Shown here: positions 8,364-44,738 of the stretch, piece after piece
Position numbering within the stretch: the stretch's first letter is position 1
How the letters are laid out: every line of letters begins with the position of its first letter
Source: a virus
DNA length: 64,000 nucleotides
IMG/VR virus record: IMGVR_UViG_3300042691_050360
Span: 62,001-126,000 of that record
Strand: one strand, 5' to 3'
Position numbers and translations under genes: made by a program
Notes under the pieces: generated by a model
Told to the model about the DNA's origin: nothing
What the model saw: the letters and a program-made list of their open reading frames with translations, nothing else
Databases searched by the model: none

Positions 8364-9668
8364 ATGCAACAAATTACTTTAACACAATCTCAAATCGAAA
8401 CAATTACATCAAACAACTACACAAAATCTCAAATCAAAGAATATCTAGGTATTTCTTTGCCAACGGTTGATGTCGTTTGTAGTAAATATGGAATAAATCC
8501 AAGTAGAGACCAAAGAAAATACAAGCCAAATGATAATTATTTCAAAACATGGTCAATCGAGATGGCTTATTTTCTCGGCCTTATTGCGGCGGATGGTCAT
8601 GTAAGTCACAAGAAAAATTTATTGATGATTAATCTCAAACAAACAGACCACCAGATAATAGAAAATCTTAAAAATGCCCTGGAGTATGACGGCCCTATTT
8701 ACACCATTAATAAGAAGGACGGACAGCCACAATCTTGCTTGACAGTAAGCTCAAAAGAAATTGCTAAAGATTTAAATGATTTAGGATTATCAGGAAACAA
8801 AACTTATGATTTTGATTGGGTAGTGGGAATGCCCGAGGAATATGTATCTCACTTTATTCGCGGCATTTTTGATGGAGATGGATGCATTCATTTAAACACG
8901 GAAAAGCATAATTATTCTGTTAATATTGTCGGTACATACAAACTCACTGAAAATATTAAAGTTTTTTATGATAAATTATGTAATACAAAATCTGGACATC
9001 TTCAGCCCAATAAAAATGTGCAAGTTTTGTATTACAACGGCAGATATAATGCTTTGGCTTTTCTGAATTGGATCTACACAGACTCCACACAATCTACGAG
9101 GCTCAGCAGAAAGTACGAGTTATATCTTCAGCTCAAAGACACAATCTGTGCGGAAGAACAAGTTCCAAATAACTCTCACATTAATCAGGAAATTGCAAAT
9201 GAGATTAGAAGTGATAAGCACAGAGAATCTACTTCAAAAGAAATTGCTAATAAATTGGAAATTAGCGAGCATATTGTTAATGACGTGAAATTGAATAGGA
9301 CATGGATTGATGAATCTTACGCTCCCACTCCCCCTTCAAACACAATCTTGATCACGCATGACAATCAGATTAAGACGATACAGGAATGGTCCGACGAGCT
9401 TGGGATTCCATATTCAACTATTGACAGAAGATATAGGATGGGTTTGCCTTCCGACCAAATCTTAGATAATTCTGGGAAGCGATTAAGCCTAGGCAAGACA
9501 CAATCTGAAAAGGAGAAGCAGGCATATGAATTAGCTTTTAATCTCCGCACAGATTATAAAAACGGTTTAAAGGGCAAAGCTTTGTACGAGGAAAAATACG
9601 GAATTAAAAAATCGCGGTATATTGACATTATTGGAAATCGCACTTGCAAAGAGGGTGAAATTTGGTAA
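8364..9668 (+). CDS. LAGLIDADG homing endonuclease, free-standing
   Basis: This 434-residue protein carries two LAGLIDADG motifs: YFLGLIAADG at 69-78 and FIRGIFDGDG at 164-173, with the acidic residues (Asp77, Asp172) that bind the catalytic metal. An N-terminal helix-turn-helix (about 18-45) and further helix-turn-helix-like segments in the C-terminal 170 residues (for example KEIANKLEISEHIV) probably help to recognise DNA. The gene sits directly behind the capsid terminator under its own leaderless-type promoter; neither neighbour is split, so it is not inside an intron. It holds five copies of the window's over-represented ACACAATCT 9-mer, the densest cluster. Its target is not visible. 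Confidence 0.9.
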   Translation: MQQITLTQSQIETITSNNYTKSQIKEYLGISLPTVDVVCSKYGINPSRDQRKYKPNDNYFKTWSIEMAYFLGLIAADGHVSHKKNLLMINLKQTDHQIIENLKNALEYDGPIYTINKKDGQPQSCLTVSSKEIAKDLNDLGLSGNKTYDFDWVVGMPEEYVSHFIRGIFDGDGCIHLNTEKHNYSVNIVGTYKLTENIKVFYDKLCNTKSGHLQPNKNVQVLYYNGRYNALAFLNWIYTDSTQSTRLSRKYELYLQLKDTICAEEQVPNNSHINQEIANEIRSDKHRESTSKEIANKLEISEHIVNDVKLNRTWIDESYAPTPPSNTILITHDNQIKTIQEWSDELGIPYSTIDRRYRMGLPSDQILDNSGKRLSLGKTQSEKEKQAYELAFNLRTDYKNGLKGKALYEEKYGIKKSRYIDIIGNRTCKEGEIW

Positions 9669-9977: not shown

Positions 9978-10955
9978 TTACTGCCCCAATCCCCAAAGAG
10001 GATATTGAACGAAGAGATTTGGATTAGCCCCTAGACCAACCGTTCCGCCTGTAAATCCGCGAAGAGCACCATTGGTTAGATTCATTCCAAATGCCGGGGT
10101 GGCACTTACACCATACTCCACTGCAGTTGGTGTGAAGGCGAGAAACTTACCCAATTGGTAATATTTTGCCGAGCCGTCTGCGTGTCCAACAATAACTCCG
10201 CCGAATGCAGCTCTTACTTCATCCGCTGGTACAGTTTGAAGTGCAGAGTAATTGGCTGTTTGCTTGCCGAGCTCCCATGCCCAGAACTCTCTTACAGCAG
10301 GAGGGAAAACGGTGACTGAATTTGATGAAGCATCTGTGCCGTATGCAATTGGCACAACACCGATCTGGAGGTTGCCAGATTCCATGAGAATACCTGCCGC
10401 AGAAGTATTTGGTAGAGCTGTCATACTTCCACCAAGCCAGCTATTCCGGAACATGGTTGATGATCCTGGTGCTCGATTCCAGGTGTTAAGCTGACCAGTG
10501 AGAGAGGTGTTGAGGAGATAGCTTCCGGTTACCTGTCCGCATTGTGCCCAGCTTCCAGCAGGACAGCTAGGGGTAGATGCATTGGTATTTCCGCGAGATG
10601 TGTTGAAGTAGAGTTGGACATTCTTAACATAAGGCTGTGTCCACTTCTGCCAAGAGAAGTGATTAACTCTGTGTGCAAATCCTGCTGATACTCCGCAGTT
10701 TACTGTACCAACTACGTTGTTGAGGGCACCGTTAAGACTAGAGTTTGCGATGCAATCATCATTGCGTGGATACATATCGTCATTATCGGCACCATACATG
10801 ATGACGCCAAGAGAGATCTGTTTTTGATTACTGATGCCGGTGGCTTTCTTTGCTGCTGCCTTGGCTTGAGCGAAGACGGGGAAGAGGATTGCCGCGAGGA
10901 TTGCGATAATCGCAATCACGACAAGAAGTTCGATTAATGTAAAAGCTTTTTTCAT
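9978..10955 (-). CDS. Prepilin-type N-terminal domain protein (DUF1559 / H-x-DG type pseudopilin)
   Basis: This 325-residue protein begins MKKAFTLIELLVVIAI, the class III signal of type IV pilins and type II secretion pseudopilins: a short basic leader, cleavage before Phe, Glu at mature position 5 and a long hydrophobic helix continuing through ILFPVFAQAK. The QAKAAAKKA-x10-ISLG-x-MYGADNDD layout and a late GHADGSAKYY (H-x-DG) segment are typical of the DUF1559 family, which is greatly expanded in Planctomycetota and Armatimonadota. In a cell it would be processed by prepilin peptidase and placed in the membrane or a pseudopilus. The gene is visibly more GC-rich than its neighbours in places, stands alone, and has no recognisable ribosome site. 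It looks acquired from a host. Whether it acts in the cell or on the particle is unknown. Confidence 0.88.
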   Translation of the reverse strand: MKKAFTLIELLVVIAIIAILAAILFPVFAQAKAAAKKATGISNQKQISLGVIMYGADNDDMYPRNDDCIANSSLNGALNNVVGTVNCGVSAGFAHRVNHFSWQKWTQPYVKNVQLYFNTSRGNTNASTPSCPAGSWAQCGQVTGSYLLNTSLTGQLNTWNRAPGSSTMFRNSWLGGSMTALPNTSAAGILMESGNLQIGVVPIAYGTDASSNSVTVFPPAVREFWAWELGKQTANYSALQTVPADEVRAAFGGVIVGHADGSAKYYQLGKFLAFTPTAVEYGVSATPAFGMNLTNGALRGFTGGTVGLGANPNLFVQYPLWGLGQ

Positions 10956-38359: not shown

Positions 38360-38435
38360 TGGAGCTCATGGCTAGAATCGAACTAGCTACATTCCTTTTG
38401 CAGAGGAAGCCGTTTGCCAATTGGGTACATGAGCT
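38360..38435 (-). tRNA. tRNA-Cys (GCA)
   Basis: Acceptor AGCTCAT/ATGAGCT, anticodon arm TTCCT-CTGCAAA-AGGAA, T arm GCTAG-TTCGATT-CTAGC and encoded CCA are complete. Confidence 0.92.
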
Positions 38436-38441
38436 TAAATC

Positions 38442-38515
38442 TGGGAGGAAATGAAAGAATCGAACTTTCATCAGAGGCGTATGATACCTCCGCTTTACCA
38501 TTAAGCTAATTTCCC
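38442..38515 (-). tRNA. tRNA-Met or tRNA-Ile2 (CAT)
   Basis: Acceptor GGGAAAT/ATTTCCT (one G-U), anticodon arm GAGGT-ATCATAC-GCCTC, T arm GAAAG-TTCGATT-CTTTC, encoded CCA. A tRNA-Ile2 with modified C34 cannot be excluded from the sequence. Confidence 0.88.
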
Positions 38516-38521
38516 GTAAAA

Positions 38522-38596
38522 TGGTATCCACGCTTGGATTTGAACCAAGAACCTCAATCTTGTAAGGATTTTGCTCTACCGTTGAGCTACGCGGAT
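38522..38596 (-). tRNA. tRNA-Val (TAC)
   Basis: Acceptor ATCCGCG/CGTGGAT, D arm GCTC...GAGC, anticodon loop CTTACAA, T arm CTTGG-TTCAAAT-CCAAG, discriminator A and encoded CCA. One A-G mismatch tops the anticodon stem. Confidence 0.88.
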
Positions 38597-38600
38597 GGAC

Positions 38601-38698
38601 TGGCACCCATTCATGGATTCGAACCACAATTAACTCTTCCTTACTGGGCACCTTGATGCACAGAAAAGAGAGTTGTCCTGCCTTTAGACGAAATGGGT
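38601..38698 (-). tRNA. tRNA-Gln-like (TTG) with a 24-nt insertion in the anticodon loop
   Basis: Acceptor ACCCATT/AATGGGT, discriminator G, encoded CCA, D arm GTC...GAC and T arm TGTGG-TTCGAAT-CCATG are all present, but 31 nt lie between the halves of the anticodon stem ACTCT/AGAGT. Removing 38641-38664 leaves the normal loop CTTTGGA with anticodon TTG. With the insertion, CTTT/AAGG and CTG/CAG can pair and continue the stem, so the anticodon would be hidden. The exact boundaries and identity are inferred. Confidence 0.7.
38641..38664 (-). other. 24-nt insertion in the tRNA-Gln anticodon loop
   Basis: This interval is the extra sequence between T35 and G36 if the mature loop is CTTTGGA. It contains a small GCAT-CAAG-GTGC hairpin. 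Confidence 0.55.
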
Positions 38699-38704
38699 GT
38701 GAAA

Positions 38705-38778
38705 TGGTGTTGCCCGAGGAATTGAACCCCGCCTTCTCCCGCGAAGAGACGCTCTACCAACTGAGCTAGAAGCAACAC
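38705..38778 (-). tRNA. tRNA-like gene with a shortened anticodon loop
   Basis: D arm TAGCTCAGTTGGTAGAGC, T arm CGGGG-TTCAATT-CCTCG and a CCA end are clear. The anticodon arm is 2 nt short: TCTCT/GGAGA leaves a 5-nt loop TCGCG, or a 4-bp stem gives the loop TTCGCGG with a possible CGC. The acceptor strands are also of unequal length. It may be decayed, or another loop variant; no amino acid is assigned. Confidence 0.5.
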
Positions 38779-38785
38779 AAGAAAT

Positions 38786-38808
38786 GGAGGAGGGAAGAGG
38801 TTTCGAAA
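38786..38808 (-). pseudogene. 3' remnant of a tRNA (T loop to CCA)
   Basis: On the minus strand TTCGAAACCTCTTCCCTCCTCCA reads as T loop, 3' T stem, 3' acceptor strand, discriminator and CCA, but no 5' partner strand is present. The endonuclease gene begins right at this point, in the T loop. Confidence 0.4.
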
Positions 38809-38824
38809 CTTGGTATATGTAAAT

Positions 38825-39508
38825 ATGCTGTCAAACAACATTACTAGAGAGTTCCTACAAAAGTTCAAGTCCCGTGAAAGAGTGCCTTTAGTGTGTTTCG
38901 TATGTGGCGGAGATTTTTTACGCCCTAAAAACGATCTACTAAATTCTTTATCCTTGGGACGTAATATAGTTTGTCAAAGATTATGTGGATATAACCACTG
39001 GTTGCTGGCAACCAACCGAGGTAAGGATCATTGTGTTTGCCAGGTATGTGGCACTGAATACGTCAGATCACGATCTCAAGTGGCGAGAACTCCAAATAAG
39101 TTTTGCTCTAAATCTTGCTCAGTAACGTGGCAAAACAAACACAAAACCACCGGTTACCGACGTTCCAAACTTGAGAAGTATCTTGAAGAAAAGATTCGCA
39201 AAGAGTTTCCAGCTTTACAGTTTGAAGCTAATTGCCGGTCTGTCATTGATTACGAACTTGATTTCTATTTTCCGACTTTGAAGTTCGCAATAGAAGTAAA
39301 CGGGATTACGCACTATCGTCCTGTTTACAGCGAAGCCCGGTTCAAGCGTACAAAGGAGATTGACGCTGAAAAGAAATTACGTTGCAGTGAACTAGGTATC
39401 ACCTTGTATGTGATACCTAATACCATTCATGCCTTTACAGCTGAATTCGGGGATATAACATGGAGTGAGATGCTGGATTCAGCTGTAAGCCCGCTACGGC
39501 CTACTTAG
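38825..39508 (+). CDS. Zinc-finger plus PD-(D/E)XK (Vsr-like) endonuclease inserted in the tRNA array
   Basis: This protein is 227 residues from ATG 38825 (a longer frame starts at 38810). Two Cys4 knuckles come first (Cys24/27/50/54 and Cys72/75/94/98), then a nuclease core with YELDFYFPTLKFAIEVNG (Asp146, Glu157), HYRPVYSEARFKRTKEIDAEKK and ITLYVIP. This layout is that of Vsr-like free-standing homing endonucleases. It is the only plus-strand gene within the minus-strand tRNA array. Tellingly, a tRNA 3' remnant touches its start, and its stop codon TAG lies in a broken tRNA-Ser copy. That suggests insertion into tRNA genes, a common homing target. Confidence 0.75.
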   Translation: MLSNNITREFLQKFKSRERVPLVCFVCGGDFLRPKNDLLNSLSLGRNIVCQRLCGYNHWLLATNRGKDHCVCQVCGTEYVRSRSQVARTPNKFCSKSCSVTWQNKHKTTGYRRSKLEKYLEEKIRKEFPALQFEANCRSVIDYELDFYFPTLKFAIEVNGITHYRPVYSEARFKRTKEIDAEKKLRCSELGITLYVIPNTIHAFTAEFGDITWSEMLDSAVSPLRPT

Positions 39509-39536
39509 ATTAGCAATATAGCTCAGCACACCCAAT
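39489..39536 (-). pseudogene. Broken tRNA-Ser (GCT) copy, 5' part
   Basis: The minus strand shows GGATATT, then a shortened D region and ATTGCTAATCTAAGTAGGCC, closely matching the intact tRNA-Ser(GCT) at 39640-39730. It lacks the T arm and acceptor 3' strand. The endonuclease stop codon is formed by the shared ACTTAGATTAGCAAT sequence. Confidence 0.5.
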
Positions 39537-39548
39537 ATCCTCAAAATA

Positions 39549-39636
39549 TGGTGGGGAATGTAGGATTTGAACCCACGGAACCTTTCAGTCCTGCTGTTTT
39601 CAAGACAGCTGCAATCGGCCTCTATGCGAATTCCCC
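39549..39636 (-). tRNA. tRNA-Ser (TGA)
   Basis: Acceptor GGGGAAT/ATTCCCC, anticodon arm GCTGT-CTTGAAA-ACAGC, long variable arm, T arm GTGGG-TTCAAAT-CCTAC, discriminator A and encoded CCA. Confidence 0.92.
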
Positions 39637-39639
39637 GTA

Positions 39640-39730
39640 TGGCGGATACACTGGAGTACGATTCCAAAGCCTTTTACAGCCCACTTAGATTAGCAATCTA
39701 GTCCGGCAAACCTGTCCGGTTGTAATATCC
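39640..39730 (-). tRNA. tRNA-Ser (GCT) with swapped T-loop pair
   Basis: Acceptor GGATATT/TGTATCC, discriminator G, CCA, D arm CCGG...CCGG, anticodon loop TTGCTAA and a long variable arm. The T loop is ATCGTAC rather than TTCRANN, so positions 54 and 58 are A and U instead of U and A. Confidence 0.75.
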
Positions 39731-39737
39731 TTAAATC

Positions 39738-39813
39738 TGGTGCTCCCCTCCGAGTACGATCCGGAAACCTTCCCATCTTCAGCGGGACGCTCTACCAATT
39801 GAGCTAGAGAAGC
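39738..39813 (-). tRNA. tRNA-Phe (GAA) with swapped T-loop pair
   Basis: Acceptor GCTTCTC/GGGGAGC, D arm GCTC...GAGC, anticodon arm TCCCG-CTGAAGA-TGGGA, discriminator A and encoded CCA. The T loop is again ATCGTAC, as in the neighbouring tRNA-Ser(GCT). Confidence 0.85.
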
Positions 39814-39821
39814 ACATAATC

Positions 39822-39913
39822 TGGAGCGAGATGAGAGATTCGAACTCTCAAAATCTGCTTCCTGTAATGAGATCACAGGAAGGCAGGCGTTTTACCATTA
39901 AAACTAATCCCGC
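39822..39913 (-). tRNA. tRNA-Gly (TCC) with a 17-nt insertion in the anticodon loop
   Basis: Acceptor GCGGGAT/ATCTCGC, D arm, T arm GAGAG-TTCGAAT-CTCTC and CCA are those of a typical tRNA-Gly(TCC). Between CTTCC and AA of the expected loop CTTCCAA lie 17 extra nt (39861-39877). With them TTCCTGT pairs perfectly with ACAGGAA, so the anticodon would be closed in an extended stem. Removing them restores a standard tRNA. Confidence 0.8.
39861..39877 (-). other. 17-nt insertion in the tRNA-Gly anticodon loop
   Basis: Extra sequence between C36 and A37 of tRNA-Gly(TCC). It pairs with the flanking loop bases (TTCCTGT/ACAGGAA with a 9-nt loop). Confidence 0.65.
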
Positions 39914-39918
39914 TCACT

Positions 39919-39938
39919 TATTTAATTGTCAAAGAACA
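39919..39938 (-). promoter_or_regulatory. boxA-like / TTGACA block before the first tRNA
   Basis: The minus strand reads TGTTCTTTGACAATTAAATA, 5 nt before tRNA-Gly. The first part matches rRNA-leader boxA (TGYTCTTTAACA), where NusB-S10 load for antitermination. TTGACA could instead be a -35 box. The last 14 bases recur before the second tRNA array. Confidence 0.6.
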
Positions 39939-39941
39939 TAA

Positions 39942-39976
39942 TAAAAAAACCCCGAAGATCTTGCCTTCGGGGTTTT
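39942..39976 (-). terminator. Intrinsic terminator upstream of tRNA array 1
   Basis: CCCCGAAG/CTTCGGGG extended by AAAA/TTTT, with a run of seven T on the minus-strand side. It would stop leftward transcription before the tRNA array, after the mini-ORF. Confidence 0.88.
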
Positions 39977-40002
39977 GGTGAAATTTTTGTTAAAGAAAAA
40001 TT

Positions 40003-40065
40003 CTAGCCATTACCCTGAAGGGTTGACCACATAAAGCATCCTTGACTAAATTGCGAATTTCTCAT
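40003..40065 (-). CDS. Possible 20-residue leader peptide of tRNA array 1
   Basis: ATG 40065 follows AGGA by 9 nt and opens a 20-codon frame containing GCFMW and ending NG before TAG. A TATAAC box preceded by CG (40088-40093) lies about 22 nt upstream of the ATG, giving a short 5' leader. The stop is about 27 nt before the terminator stem. A similar mini-ORF stands before the second array. Confidence 0.5.
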   Translation of the reverse strand: MRNSQFSQGCFMWSTLQGNG

Positions 40066-40142
40066 TGTTATATTTCCTATGTTAATGTTATACGCATTAA
40101 CTACCTTCTTTGTTCCGTGTTTTTTTAAAATTTATTTAAAAA

Positions 40143-40580
40143 TCACAATTCCAACAAATCCATTTTGACTCCAGCTTCTTCGAACATGATCTCGGTGAGC
40201 TTAAAAGCATCCTTCCATCTTTCATATCTTTCACCGGCGACAGGAACGGATACGCATCTGGAAATGCCACTTTGGATAATCATCCCTGCACATGCAGAAC
40301 AAGGCATGAACGGATATGTATAGATTGTGTGATTGGTGAGATCTTTATGTGCCATTAAAATAGCATTCACTTCCGCATGCACTATCATTTTCAGTTTAGT
40401 GTCACGGTCATTATATCTTTCTTCTGTGTCTTCCACCCCTCTAGGGAAGCCATTATAGCCCACAGACACAATCCTATTTCTATCATCGACAATTACGCCT
40501 CCAACTTGGGACGAGGGGTCTTTCGAGTATGTTGACACTTGTTTCGCTAATTCTAGAAATCTTCTATCCCACTTGTTCAT
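40143..40580 (-). CDS. dCMP deaminase
   Basis: This protein is 145 residues from ATG 40580. The zinc site is His68-Ala-Glu70 (HAEVNAI) and Cys94-x-x-Cys97 (PCSACA), with DPSSQVGGVIVD and VGYNGFPRG in front, as in dCMP deaminases. It turns dCMP into dUMP for dTTP synthesis in the infected cell. The ATG overlaps the stop of 40577-40765 as ATGA, which fixes the start; an upstream in-frame extension overlaps that gene and is not used. Confidence 0.92.
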   Translation of the reverse strand: MNKWDRRFLELAKQVSTYSKDPSSQVGGVIVDDRNRIVSVGYNGFPRGVEDTEERYNDRDTKLKMIVHAEVNAILMAHKDLTNHTIYTYPFMPCSACAGMIIQSGISRCVSVPVAGERYERWKDAFKLTEIMFEEAGVKMDLLEL

Positions 40581-40765
40581 AACTTTACTCCAATTTTCAC
40601 CCCAATTAAAGCAGGTGACCATGAATCATCAGGGTATTGTGTTTTTTCTTGGAAATCATACACTTCTGTGATTGAATATCTTTCATTATCAAATTCGACA
40701 AAAATTTCATCTTCATCAAGCCAATCTAAATCATTTAATTTTTCACGCATTTCCTTAACTGTCAT
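40577..40765 (-). CDS. Small acidic protein coupled to dCMP deaminase
   Basis: This 62-residue protein starts MTVKEMREKLNDLDWLDEDE and ends with ALIGVKIGVKL. The early helix followed by VEFDNERYSITEVYDF resembles short phage proteins seen near nucleotide genes; no family is named. TATAAA (40771-40776) ends 5 nt before the ATG. Its stop overlaps the deaminase ATG. Confidence 0.7.
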   Translation of the reverse strand: MTVKEMREKLNDLDWLDEDEIFVEFDNERYSITEVYDFQEKTQYPDDSWSPALIGVKIGVKL

Positions 40766-40770
40766 AACTT

Positions 40771-40776
40771 TTTATA
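40771..40776 (-). promoter_or_regulatory. -10-like box TATAAA, leaderless type
   Basis: TATAAA preceded by CG on the minus strand ends 5 nt before ATG 40765 and would drive the two-gene deaminase unit. Confidence 0.6.
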
Positions 40777-40821
40777 CGCTTTAGATGGAGGTTTTTCGGG
40801 CAAAAATAGGAAATTCAGATT

Positions 40822-41154
40822 GTGTGGTATAGGTATTCACAACAGCAAATTCTACCTCCAGTCCATGAAGGTTGCCATTGCTATATAGAAACCCTTCCCA
40901 GCGGAAACACAATCTGGCAATTTTCTGGAAATACTTGTGACACCTGCAAGGCACTAGCTAGAGAATATAACAGCAAGCAAAACTCAATAATTAATGAGCC
41001 AGCCCAAATAGATCCAGTTATTCCTGAGCCACCAGCTGTCATGGAAGATCCTGTGGAGCAACCTGAAGAAGAACCAGTAGCAGAAGATCCCACCACCCAG
41101 CCTATGCTATTTAGAAATCTCAGATATACACCTAAAAAGTTTTACAATCTATAG
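40822..41154 (+). CDS. Small protein with MuF-like C-terminal cysteine motif
   Basis: This 110-residue protein starts at GTG 40822 (MWYRYSQQQ). It contains PPVHEGCHCYIETLPSG followed by W and CDTCK, which resembles the end of MuF/SPP1-gp7-type head proteins (P-P-x-H-x-x-C-R-C). The second half is a Pro/Glu-rich disordered tail. It could be a detached MuF-type zinc module. The start codon lies inside a copy of CAGATTGTGT (40816-40825); another copy follows at 40907. The start shares GTGTGGTAT with the PHP-like gene at 33469. Confidence 0.55.
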   Translation: MWYRYSQQQILPPVHEGCHCYIETLPSGNTIWQFSGNTCDTCKALAREYNSKQNSIINEPAQIDPVIPEPPAVMEDPVEQPEEEPVAEDPTTQPMLFRNLRYTPKKFYNL

Positions 41155-41165
41155 TTTGTCAAATT

Positions 41166-41426
41166 TTAATTCTTTTCGCCGCCAAAAAGTTCTATATACT
41201 CCGGGTATTCGTCGAGCTTAGACCTTAAAATATGCAATCTCGCCCGCGACTCTTCAATTGTCTTCACATTCAGAACTTCTTGCAAGGCAGCCCTGAGCCT
41301 TTGATCATTCACGATTAGCCTCCAATTATCTTTGTATTGCGGAAATAAGAGTTGCTCAAGGATCTTAGTGACACTTTCATCCTCAGATAGTGTTCTTTTT
41401 CTGTCGTAAAATTCTTCTCTTGTCAT
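41166..41426 (-). CDS. Small hypothetical helical protein
   Basis: This protein is 86 residues from ATG 41426 (MTREEFYDRKRTLSEDESV). The frame continues upstream to 41516 but would run into the tRNA-Ala gene; TATATA (41432-41437) 5 nt before ATG 41426 supports the shorter form. It is all helical and ends with YIELFGGEKN. No family is recognised. Confidence 0.65.
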   Translation of the reverse strand: MTREEFYDRKRTLSEDESVTKILEQLLFPQYKDNWRLIVNDQRLRAALQEVLNVKTIEESRARLHILRSKLDEYPEYIELFGGEKN

Positions 41427-41431
41427 ATTTT

Positions 41432-41437
41432 TATATA
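41432..41437 (-). promoter_or_regulatory. -10-like box TATATA, leaderless type
   Basis: TATATA preceded by CG on the minus strand ends 5 nt before ATG 41426. A copy of the 10-mer (41444-41453) lies 6 nt further upstream. Confidence 0.55.
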
Positions 41438-41454
41438 CGAATCCAGATTGTGTT

Positions 41455-41531
41455 TGGTGGAGCCGACGGGGTTCGAACCCGCAAGACTTCTGATTGCAAA
41501 TCAGACGCTTTCCCAAATAAGCTTCGGCCCC
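41455..41531 (-). tRNA. tRNA-Ala (TGC)
   Basis: Acceptor GGGGCCG/CGGCTCC, anticodon arm TCTGA-TTTGCAA-TCAGA, T arm GCGGG-TTCGAAC-CCCGT, discriminator A and CCA. Confidence 0.92.
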
Positions 41532-41537
41532 GAAAAC

Positions 41538-41614
41538 TGGTCAGTTAGGTGAGATTTGAACTCACACACCTTTGAGTCACAATCAAAGGGCTCTACCATT
41601 TAAGCTACTAACTT
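41538..41614 (-). tRNA. tRNA-His (GTG)
   Basis: Anticodon arm TTTGA-TTGTGAC-TCAAA gives GTG. Acceptor AAGTTAG/CTAACTG pairs except for an A1-G72 mismatch. T arm GTGAG-TTCAAAT-CTCAC and CCA are present. Confidence 0.82.
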
Positions 41615-41617
41615 GTG

Positions 41618-41694
41618 TGGTGTCGTGTGAAAGACTCGAACTTTCAAATTTCAGGTTCTCAACCTGTTGCCTCTACCAATTTGGCTAACACGAC
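41618..41694 (-). tRNA. tRNA-Leu (GAG) with short variable loop
   Basis: Acceptor GTCGTGT/ACACGAC, discriminator A, CCA, Leu-like D loop AAATTGGTAGA and anticodon loop TTGAGAA. The variable region is only about five bases, whereas bacterial tRNA-Leu normally has a long arm. Confidence 0.8.
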
Positions 41695-41697
41695 GTT

Positions 41698-41777
41698 TGG
41701 TACCAGCGGCGAGATTCGAACTCGCAAAAGCTACGGTTCTAAACCGTATTGTTGTACCATTCACTTGCCACGCTGGT
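41698..41777 (-). tRNA. tRNA-Leu (TAG) with short variable loop
   Basis: Acceptor ACCAGCG/CGCTGGT, anticodon arm TACGG-TTTAGAA-CCGTA, T arm GCGAG-TTCGAAT-CTCGC, discriminator A, CCA. The variable loop is again short. Confidence 0.82.
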
Positions 41778-41785
41778 AGAAATCT

Positions 41786-41870
41786 TGGTGGAGACAGTAG
41801 GACTCGAACCTACGAACCGATTAAAGCACTGGGTTACAGCCAGTTGTAATTGCCGCTATACGATGTCTCC
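41786..41870 (-). tRNA. tRNA-Tyr (GTA)
   Basis: Acceptor GGAGACA/TGTCTCC, anticodon arm ACTGG-CTGTAAC-CCAGT, long variable arm, T arm GTAGG-TTCGAGT-CCTAC, CCA. Confidence 0.93.
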
Positions 41871-41879
41871 AGAAAAACT

Positions 41880-41958
41880 TGGTCTGCGTGACAAGATTCG
41901 AACTTGTGTGCTTGACCTCCCAAGGGCCACGAGGTAGACCAGACTCCTCAACACGCAG
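41880..41958 (-). tRNA. tRNA-Pro (TGG)
   Basis: Acceptor CTGCGTG/CACGCAG, anticodon arm TGGCC-CTTGGGA-GGTCA, T arm ACAAG-TTCGAAT-CTTGT, discriminator A, CCA. Confidence 0.93.
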
Positions 41959-43232: not shown

Positions 43233-44738
43233 TTAAATATTTTTTAAAAACTTTTTCCAACCAGGCCATTCTGATTTATAGATTGAGTGAGGATTGGCTG
43301 GAATATAAGATGGTTTGCCTTTTCTTTTGACTAGCCAATCTTCGCCAGAAGCCACCCCATTTTCTATCATCCATTTCTTGCAATCTTCATAGCTGACAAA
43401 AACAGCCTTCTTAGATTGCACCTTATTCGTACCAAGAAAATCTCCCCAAGAAACCCATCCGTTGTTTTTGTAAGATATATTTGGCTCAAAAGGAACTCCT
43501 AGCGGCCTCTTATCCTTCAATCCTTTAAAATCTTTGACAGATTGTAAACCTAAATCTCTAATAATAGCTCTTGCCTCTTCGAAGCTTAGAAAGTTTCTGT
43601 TGACTGCCGCCTTTCTTTCAAGTAGTAAATCTACAGCGATTCCATAATATGCTAAAGCGTTCACGAGCTCTATTTCAAGATTGTGTTTGTAGGTGATTTC
43701 AACCAATGGAATATTGTTTTGCTCACAATAATCCTTTTTGATTTTGTCTCTTTTCTGTGTTTGTTTCATGGCCTCTTCTCCGCCATAAAACTCCACAGGC
43801 ACGAAATGCTGAATTCCATGAAACTCAATAAGCAATCTAACTTTTTGGTCTTCATCCATAATTGCAATATCAAACGGCAATGGCCTTAAATCAACACAAT
43901 CTGAAAATGTGTATTGATGCAGATGCTTGATATCGTTTGACGCCAGGATGCTACTGATCGTTTTCTCGCCCACACTAACATTTCTCTGATACCCAAGAAA
44001 CTCGGGCCATCCCTCAAATTCTGGGTAGATCTCCCAAGGGTGCGACGGTACAGGTGTTGTTTTTTTATTTTGCGTGATCCATTTTTGAAATTCCATAATG
44101 GAATTTAATTTCAAGGAGTGGACAAACTTTATGCATTCTTCAAAAGATAAGTATTCTTTAAAATGGTAATTTCCATTACCTAGGAAATCACCCATAGAAA
44201 CGAAATCCACACCGTAAGTCTTTCTAGGAGACGCAGGTATATTATCCGGCCTTTCACTGGTTTTCACCCAGTCGTAGAATTCCCCCTCGTTGGTAAAGTT
44301 AAATTGAGATAGATACTCCTTGGCTTCTGAGTAATTCAGGAAGTTTTGATGCTTAGTGATATCCGCCACCCTATCTGTCCTGAAGAAAGCTCCCCATGAT
44401 TTCCACTCTTCCATATAGGTCTTATCAGGCCTCGTTGGAACCAAGCTGTTTAGCTTAAGTTTCCGCCAAGATTCAAATTTTTCTTTTGAGTTTATTCCTT
44501 CCCTGAGTAAATAATCACTGCACTCCGCATATGTCAAGAATTGCTTATCTTTTGCCGCTATATTTCCATTTCCTAGAAAATCGGGCCAGTTCAGGAACTC
44601 AACATAATCCCTATTTGGATTCCTCGGGATGCCAGATGGGATCTTCCCGTCTTTGAACAAAGAATAATACTCTTTGACCGATTTTATTTTCAGATTGTGT
44701 ATGATGGATTTTGCTTTTTCAAATTCTAAATACTGCAT
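43233..44738 (-). CDS. PD-(D/E)XK endonuclease embedded in six INT-type (phage-integrase-repeat) units
   Basis: This 501-residue protein has four repeat units of about 55 residues, then a nuclease, then two more units. Each unit follows a pattern like FLSFEEA-x6-L-x-L-x-S-x-x-(E/D)-(F/W)...IP-x-x-P-x-x-x-Y...W-x-(S/D)-(W/F)-x-x-FLG, as in the INT_rpt units found in phages and large viruses. The nuclease (about residues 250-370) has KTISSILASNDI, LPFDIAIMDEDQKVRLLIEFHGIQHF and ITYKHNLE, with Asp and Glu placed as in PD-(D/E)XK enzymes. The repeats probably bind DNA and place the cut, as in a homing nuclease. TATATA (44744-44749) is 5 nt before the ATG. Three copies of the 9-mer lie inside. Confidence 0.75.
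   Translation of the reverse strand: MQYLEFEKAKSIIHNLKIKSVKEYYSLFKDGKIPSGIPRNPNRDYVEFLNWPDFLGNGNIAAKDKQFLTYAECSDYLLREGINSKEKFESWRKLKLNSLVPTRPDKTYMEEWKSWGAFFRTDRVADITKHQNFLNYSEAKEYLSQFNFTNEGEFYDWVKTSERPDNIPASPRKTYGVDFVSMGDFLGNGNYHFKEYLSFEECIKFVHSLKLNSIMEFQKWITQNKKTTPVPSHPWEIYPEFEGWPEFLGYQRNVSVGEKTISSILASNDIKHLHQYTFSDCVDLRPLPFDIAIMDEDQKVRLLIEFHGIQHFVPVEFYGGEEAMKQTQKRDKIKKDYCEQNNIPLVEITYKHNLEIELVNALAYYGIAVDLLLERKAAVNRNFLSFEEARAIIRDLGLQSVKDFKGLKDKRPLGVPFEPNISYKNNGWVSWGDFLGTNKVQSKKAVFVSYEDCKKWMIENGVASGEDWLVKRKGKPSYIPANPHSIYKSEWPGWKKFLKNI

Follow-up and report, generated by a model that had tools for sequence, protein, structure and literature searches.

A putative short hairpin intron beside the anticodon of a giant-phage tRNA-Gly gene

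Introduction

Is a 17-nucleotide (nt) insert in the anticodon loop of a viral transfer RNA (tRNA) gene an intron, and what could remove it? The question is raised by a gene for tRNA-Gly(UCC) at 39822..39913 on the minus strand of the window, by which we mean the whole 64,000-nt stretch of DNA analysed here, bases 62001-126000 of the 166,522-base viral record IMGVR_UViG_3300042691_050360. Protein-spliced tRNA introns are regarded as an archaeal and eukaryotic trait. We propose that this gene carries a short intron, folded as a hairpin, at the 36/37 position, that it belongs to a class recurring in a giant-phage lineage, and that the intron would be removed by proteins, being neither a ribozyme nor of the bulge-helix-bulge (BHB) type; judging from sequence comparisons, we put the probability of this reading at roughly 0.6. 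An earlier note had singled out the gene from the letters of the window, and because the interruptions form a class, the observation is stronger than first claimed.

The interrupted gene and its intact ortholog

The gene spans 92 nt including an encoded CCA, and it was identified from an Rfam tRNA model match (RF00005, 39825-39913(-), 47.8 bits), a hand-drawn cloverleaf and a syntenic ortholog. Numbering by hand assigned nt 1-36 to 39913..39878, the insert to 39877..39861 and the rest to 39860..39822, exactly as the earlier note had placed them. The 5' exon (39878..39913) therefore ends in the anticodon TCC (39880..39878), the putative 17-nt intron TGTGATCTCATTACAGG (39861..39877) follows at 36/37, and the 3' exon (39822..39860) runs from nt 37 to the CCA end, all on the minus strand. 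ARAGORN missed the gene in default mode and miscalled it Arg(cct) with a 12-nt intron when introns were allowed, so default tRNA finders miss such interrupted genes. Once the insert was deleted in silico the program called tRNA-Gly(tcc), and with the insert kept it made no call, so the identity first proposed holds: all cloverleaf arms, U73 and, after removal, the anticodon UCC are present. One blemish was detected, a C-A pair at 27-43 that leaves 4/5 anticodon-stem pairs. The exon-exon junction 24-mer is CGCCTGCCTTCCAAGCAGATTTTG, and the unspliced junctions are CTTCCTGTGATC and ACAGGAAGCAG.

The same tRNA is uninterrupted in a close relative, a comparison for which the earlier note had called. 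The closest large relative is G003 (347 kb), whose major capsid protein shares 92% identity with that of the window phage and whose bases 70,600-233,000 are collinear with the window record; the 166-kb record thus represents about 47% of a genome like that of G003, and roughly half of the window phage genome is missing from it. G003 carries a syntenic, insert-free ortholog at L121:1900-1975, with Ala-TGC, then Gly, Phe, Ser and Ala-CGC in common between the two, and its arm CTGCCTTCCAAGCAG equals the window arm minus exactly 17 nt. The pair thus shows the presence/absence difference that marks a tRNA intron of any kind. The acceptor and T stems of the two tRNA bodies differ at three base pairs by compensatory substitution and at one by a half change, and these changes indicate that the lineage of the interrupted gene is kept under selection as a tRNA.

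The insert and the anticodon region form a predicted helix of 10 base pairs (bp), TTCCTGTGAT / ATTACAGGAA, with one G-U pair and a CTC loop. Its 5' arm (39872..39881, minus strand) comprises U33, the anticodon and intron nt 1-6, and its 3' arm (39859..39868, minus strand) comprises intron nt 10-17, A37 and A38. The anticodon is closed within a stem, as had been foreseen, though the pairing then given, TTCCTGT/ACAGGAA, was too short. The fold has a z of -4.95, with none of 200 shuffles equally good, and shuffling the insert alone produced a helix that long in the U33 to A38 register in 0/20,000 cases. The precursor is modelled as a cloverleaf with a much lengthened anticodon arm, consisting of a 4-bp stem, a bulged C32 and 10 bp upward from U33-A38.

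Both self-splicing ribozyme-type introns and archaeal BHB introns have precedents near this site: group I introns are known in bacterial and phage tRNAs (PMC3984707), and archaeal BHB introns of 12-25 nt have been described (PMC4090602). Seventeen nucleotides are nevertheless too few for any known self-splicing ribozyme, and the insert has no ribozyme core and no Rfam match except tRNA, which bears out the earlier view that it is not a group I intron. Nor does the fold have the BHB form, since the splice sites lie within a continuous helix rather than two 3-nt bulges around 4 bp; the same is true of two tRNAs, Leu and Cys, of the more distant relative G038 described below. An EndA-type (EndA/Sen) endonuclease (PF01974) was absent from the 14 phage records searched, the window's partial record included. 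The host is most likely bacterial, of the phylum Armatimonadota, because a phage-borne prepilin-like protein (window 9978-10955) shares 85% identity with one from an Armatimonadota metagenome-assembled genome, with further close matches in Fimbriimonadales. As the insert fits neither the group I nor the BHB pattern, we file it under neither type and consider an origin of this kind highly improbable. Splicing, if it occurs, would then need a protein system, as the note had argued.

Recurrence in a giant relative

The recurrence was sought in 46 records with related capsid genes and 32 more. Among them, G038 (IMGVR_UViG_3300029922_000001, 441 kb) is a giant phage whose capsid protein is 66% identical to that of the window phage, and from sequence and fold it contains five further interrupted tRNAs: Lys-UUU (172713-172810) and, on the minus strand, Gly-GCC (245888-245993), Cys-GCA (251433-251524), Thr-UGU (253296-253394) and Leu-UAG (275381-275484). 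Across all six genes the inserts are 17, 17, 18, 18, 24 and 31 nt long and differ in sequence, with TGTGA...AGG common to the two Gly inserts. A helix engulfing the anticodon region begins at nt 32 or 33 in every case; G34 is unpaired within that of Gly-GCC, and the register in Cys is shifted by two, leaving A37-A38 unpaired. The last two intron nt are Watson-Crick complementary to the last two of the 5' exon (35 and 36; 34 and 35 in Cys) at 12/12 positions, and when inserts were reassigned among the tRNAs, 2/720 permutations matched this pairing, one being the actual assignment and the other an exchange of the Gly inserts with each other. Removal of the insert gave an anticodon matching the body isotype (6/6) and a 7-nt loop with U33, A37 and A38 in all six; placing the insert at the canonical 37/38 site would make nt 37 a pyrimidine in four cases. 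With inserts kept, ARAGORN called none in 5/6 and miscalled the other.

A structure-specific scan of 2.74 Mb recovered five genes, the window's and four from G038, versus one weaker control match. Per 20,000 shuffled inserts, the observed helix was matched 0 times for Gly-UCC, 6 for Leu and 10 for Cys. The contiguous helix of Lys and that of Thr were not significant by themselves, and the measure is inapplicable to Gly-GCC. We rejected a functional alternative anticodon in the apical loop (ATCTCAT read as U33-CTC-A37), which is absent from the other five tRNAs. Exact exon patterns found no further virus, a first search pattern gave chance matches, and a pattern designed for Gly tRNAs with an interruption, applied to viral contigs, matched a single tRNA, that of G038, the others being protein-coding-like chance matches. 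Surveys of viral tRNAs with extra nt between the D and T arms yielded many odd tRNAs, of which, among the matches listed, none beyond G038 could be assigned clearly to this type, apart from an uncertain family at L524, L528, L565 and L570, with GTTGCGCAACCAATTCAA-like loops, in two of which ARAGORN reports Glu(ttc) with an 11-nt intron.

Both the tRNA-Gly gene and a probable second interrupted tRNA lie in a cluster at 38360..41958 on the minus strand, where 14 tRNAs are counted with introns allowed. The second (38601..38698, minus strand; ARAGORN with introns, own scan, fold z -2.5) has a perfect acceptor, intact other arms, a Glu-like body and D arm (or Lys by its anticodon) and about 24 extra nt in a 31-nt anticodon loop (38638-38668) that folds on itself. 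It scores below the Rfam gathering threshold, and its boundaries are irregular: if the anticodon is UUC the insert starts TGTG, yet the exon loop then differs from 7 nt.

Could the genes instead be dead or dying, their anticodon regions copied as inverted repeats by template switching? Such snap-back events can create inverted repeats that include exon sequence, and the C-A pair at 27-43, together with intact same-anticodon copies for 3/5 of the interrupted tRNAs in G038, would fit decay. A single plan in six cases, acceptor and T arms without decay in all of them and the compensatory changes relative to G003 speak for maintenance instead, and we consider degeneration unlikely. It is likewise improbable, in our estimation, that the transcript serves, without being spliced, as a decoy that soaks up anticodon nucleases, synthetases or tRNA-sensing defences, with its tRNA body kept and its anticodon hidden. 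Anticodon nucleases are regarded as a force in shaping phage tRNAs (PMC10264068), normal copies stand beside several of the interrupted tRNAs in G038, and no splicing enzymes were found in the window's record or G003, all of which would suit a decoy. A decoy, however, has no need of a restorable 7-nt loop with U33, A37 and A38 and an anticodon fitting the body, which is present in 6/6, and G038 has no Gly tRNA and no Leu(UAG) other than the interrupted ones.

Candidate splicing enzymes

A search for splicing enzymes had been proposed in the earlier note, and it succeeded in part: G038 encodes RNA ligases and Tpt1/KptA, but no tRNA endonuclease, RNase III or RtcB was found there. Its five ATP-dependent RNA ligase open reading frames (ORFs) comprise four of PF09414 and one of PF09511, the last near T4 Rnl1 (E 7.4e-19). 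The Tpt1/KptA RNA 2'-phosphotransferase (253903-254463, minus strand; PF01885 E 1.6e-44; solved 2'-phosphotransferases E 2.5e-44) conserves the motifs LRH, RIRANQGHS and RHxVHLS, and it lies about 0.3 kb upstream of, and co-oriented with, a tRNA array in which the interrupted Thr gene is followed, at some distance, by the one for Cys. Tpt1 exceeded the cut-off in 1/33 phage records, that of G038. In fungi, tRNA splicing ends with the step that Tpt1/KptA catalyses; in the bacteria studied the enzyme is inessential. G038 thus encodes both an ATP-dependent RNA ligase and Tpt1, the pair expected of a fungal-type pathway, and together with the repeated interruptions these enzymes suggest that a bacterial virus splices tRNAs with proteins in a way so far undescribed.

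Several observations weigh against the proposal that the inserts are protein-spliced introns. No ATP-dependent RNA ligase or Tpt1 was found in the window's partial record or in the insert-free G003, RNase III was absent from the phages searched, and the lack of EndA noted above counts here as well. Published surveys account for the RNA ligases and KptA of jumbo phages by the mending of tRNAs that the host has cleaved (PMC7824862, PMC9503650), and therefore their presence shows capability, not use. Uninterrupted copies with the same anticodon exist in G038 for Lys, Thr and Cys, so the interrupted versions of these three need not be functional. Insert boundaries derive from the fit to a 7-nt loop, with the fitted site in Cys at 35/36 (or 34/35). 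On the host side, RtcB is present in 8/12 Armatimonadota-like genomes, and it was not found in the window's record or G003; the listed tRNAs of three candidate host genomes, each 71-88 nt in length, included no interrupted one.

A possible splicing route

We infer the cutting, the ligation, the enzymes used and any protective benefit as follows. In the precursor the intron would pair with the anticodon and A37-A38 to make one long anticodon arm with nt 32 bulged, and a nuclease would cleave the arm on its two strands, at the junctions of the intron with nt 36 and with nt 37. These cuts would leave exon ends with a 2-nt 3' stagger, as double-strand-specific RNases do; the stagger is a matter of geometry and no evidence for RNase III, for which the stem is short. 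End healing, exon ligation and, under fungal chemistry, removal of the 2'-phosphate would follow. Joining in G038 could use the phage's ATP-dependent ligases and Tpt1/KptA, and in the window phage a ligase from the missing half of the genome or host RtcB.

Before processing, the tRNA would be translationally silent and its anticodon loop no open target for anticodon nucleases, so the hidden anticodon could protect it, by extension of an idea in PMC10264068. A fuller version, which we advance tentatively and at clearly less than even odds, is that this giant-phage lineage combines short non-BHB hairpin introns with a virus-encoded, protein-catalysed pathway (a putative nuclease, ATP-dependent ligases, Tpt1), so that the tRNAs are switched on only in infected cells and their anticodons stay hidden from host nucleases until then. 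If such introns work in a bacterial virus, they would represent a further route to tRNA splicing, give phage RNA ligases and Tpt1/KptA a physiological substrate and offer a simple genetic system for the origin of tRNA introns.

Other unusual tRNAs and neighbouring features

We detected other kinds of odd tRNA in these phages. Ten tRNAs from several phages (L236-L238 of the 476-kb G052, L305, L310, L312, L323, L356) have inserts some 40-60 nt long, made of a hairpin and, after it, the nearly invariant sequence CAGCAA. These lie on the 5' side of the anticodon stem (about 28/29-29/30), in the loop, or between the D and anticodon arms; the tRNAs scanned matched no Rfam family beyond tRNA, and the inserts may be an unnamed intron family. 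Inserts of about 60-100 nt from other sequence families lie between the D arm and anticodon loop at L227:8473-8608 and 8718-8860 (G050) and in L241 and L242 (G052). Gln, Thr, Ile, Trp, Cys and Lys tRNAs with class II-like long variable arms occur in several phages (L116, L121:2337-2423, L128, L130, L133, L230, L236), possibly as a response to nucleases acting on the variable loop (compare PMC13096335). Stop-codon recoding is suggested by suppressor tRNAs, both amber (CTA) and opal (TCA), that occur in several relatives (L106, L112, L114, L115, L117, L129, L131, L135).

The tRNA arrays of G038 (L280, L284) have genes spaced by a conserved CGAGATAAnATG-like spacer, perhaps a processing signal, and G052 carries a short RNase P RNA-like sequence at L236:11970-12183 (48.9 bits, under the gathering score, E 3.5e-12). 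In the window, a terminator-like hairpin (39946..39976, minus strand) lies upstream of the tRNA-Gly gene, 33 nt from its 5' end. ORFs at 38810-39508 and 43233-44738, within or beside the tRNA cluster, have weak zinc-finger, INT_rpt and DUF2726 matches and are possibly free-standing homing endonucleases. A LAGLIDADG homing endonuclease ORF (8364-9668) stands immediately behind the capsid gene and has no G003 counterpart.

Comparison with known systems

Our search of open-licence papers returned no report of short phage tRNA introns, the bacterial and phage tRNA introns described there being self-splicing only, and a DNA similarity search of cultured phages gave nothing except generic tRNA matches. 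Group I introns of bacterial and phage tRNA genes likewise interrupt the tRNA at or near the anticodon, but they are ribozymes of hundreds of nt and the phage insert has none of their core. Archaeal BHB introns resemble it in length, general place and the extended anticodon arm, and differ in having the BHB motif and EndA, against a site at 36/37 and a bacterial host here.

Eukaryotic nuclear tRNA introns (Sen, Trl1 or RTCB, Tpt1) are 6-133 nt long, compared with 12-25 nt in one described archaeal group (PMC4090602). The phage inserts share with them a small size, a place beside the anticodon and intron-anticodon pairing, and G038 has parts of the Trl1/Tpt1 chemistry in its ATP-dependent ligases and Tpt1. 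The differences are a site at 36/37 instead of 37/38, splice sites within one continuous helix, no Sen/EndA homolog found in the phages searched, and the setting in a bacterial virus. T4 anticodon repair (PrrC cleavage, Pnkp, Rnl1) is similar in its anticodon-loop cut and resealing by a phage ligase, and G038 has a T4 Rnl1 homolog; the T4 tRNA is merely cut and rejoined, whereas the phage tRNAs described here would lose 17-31 nt.
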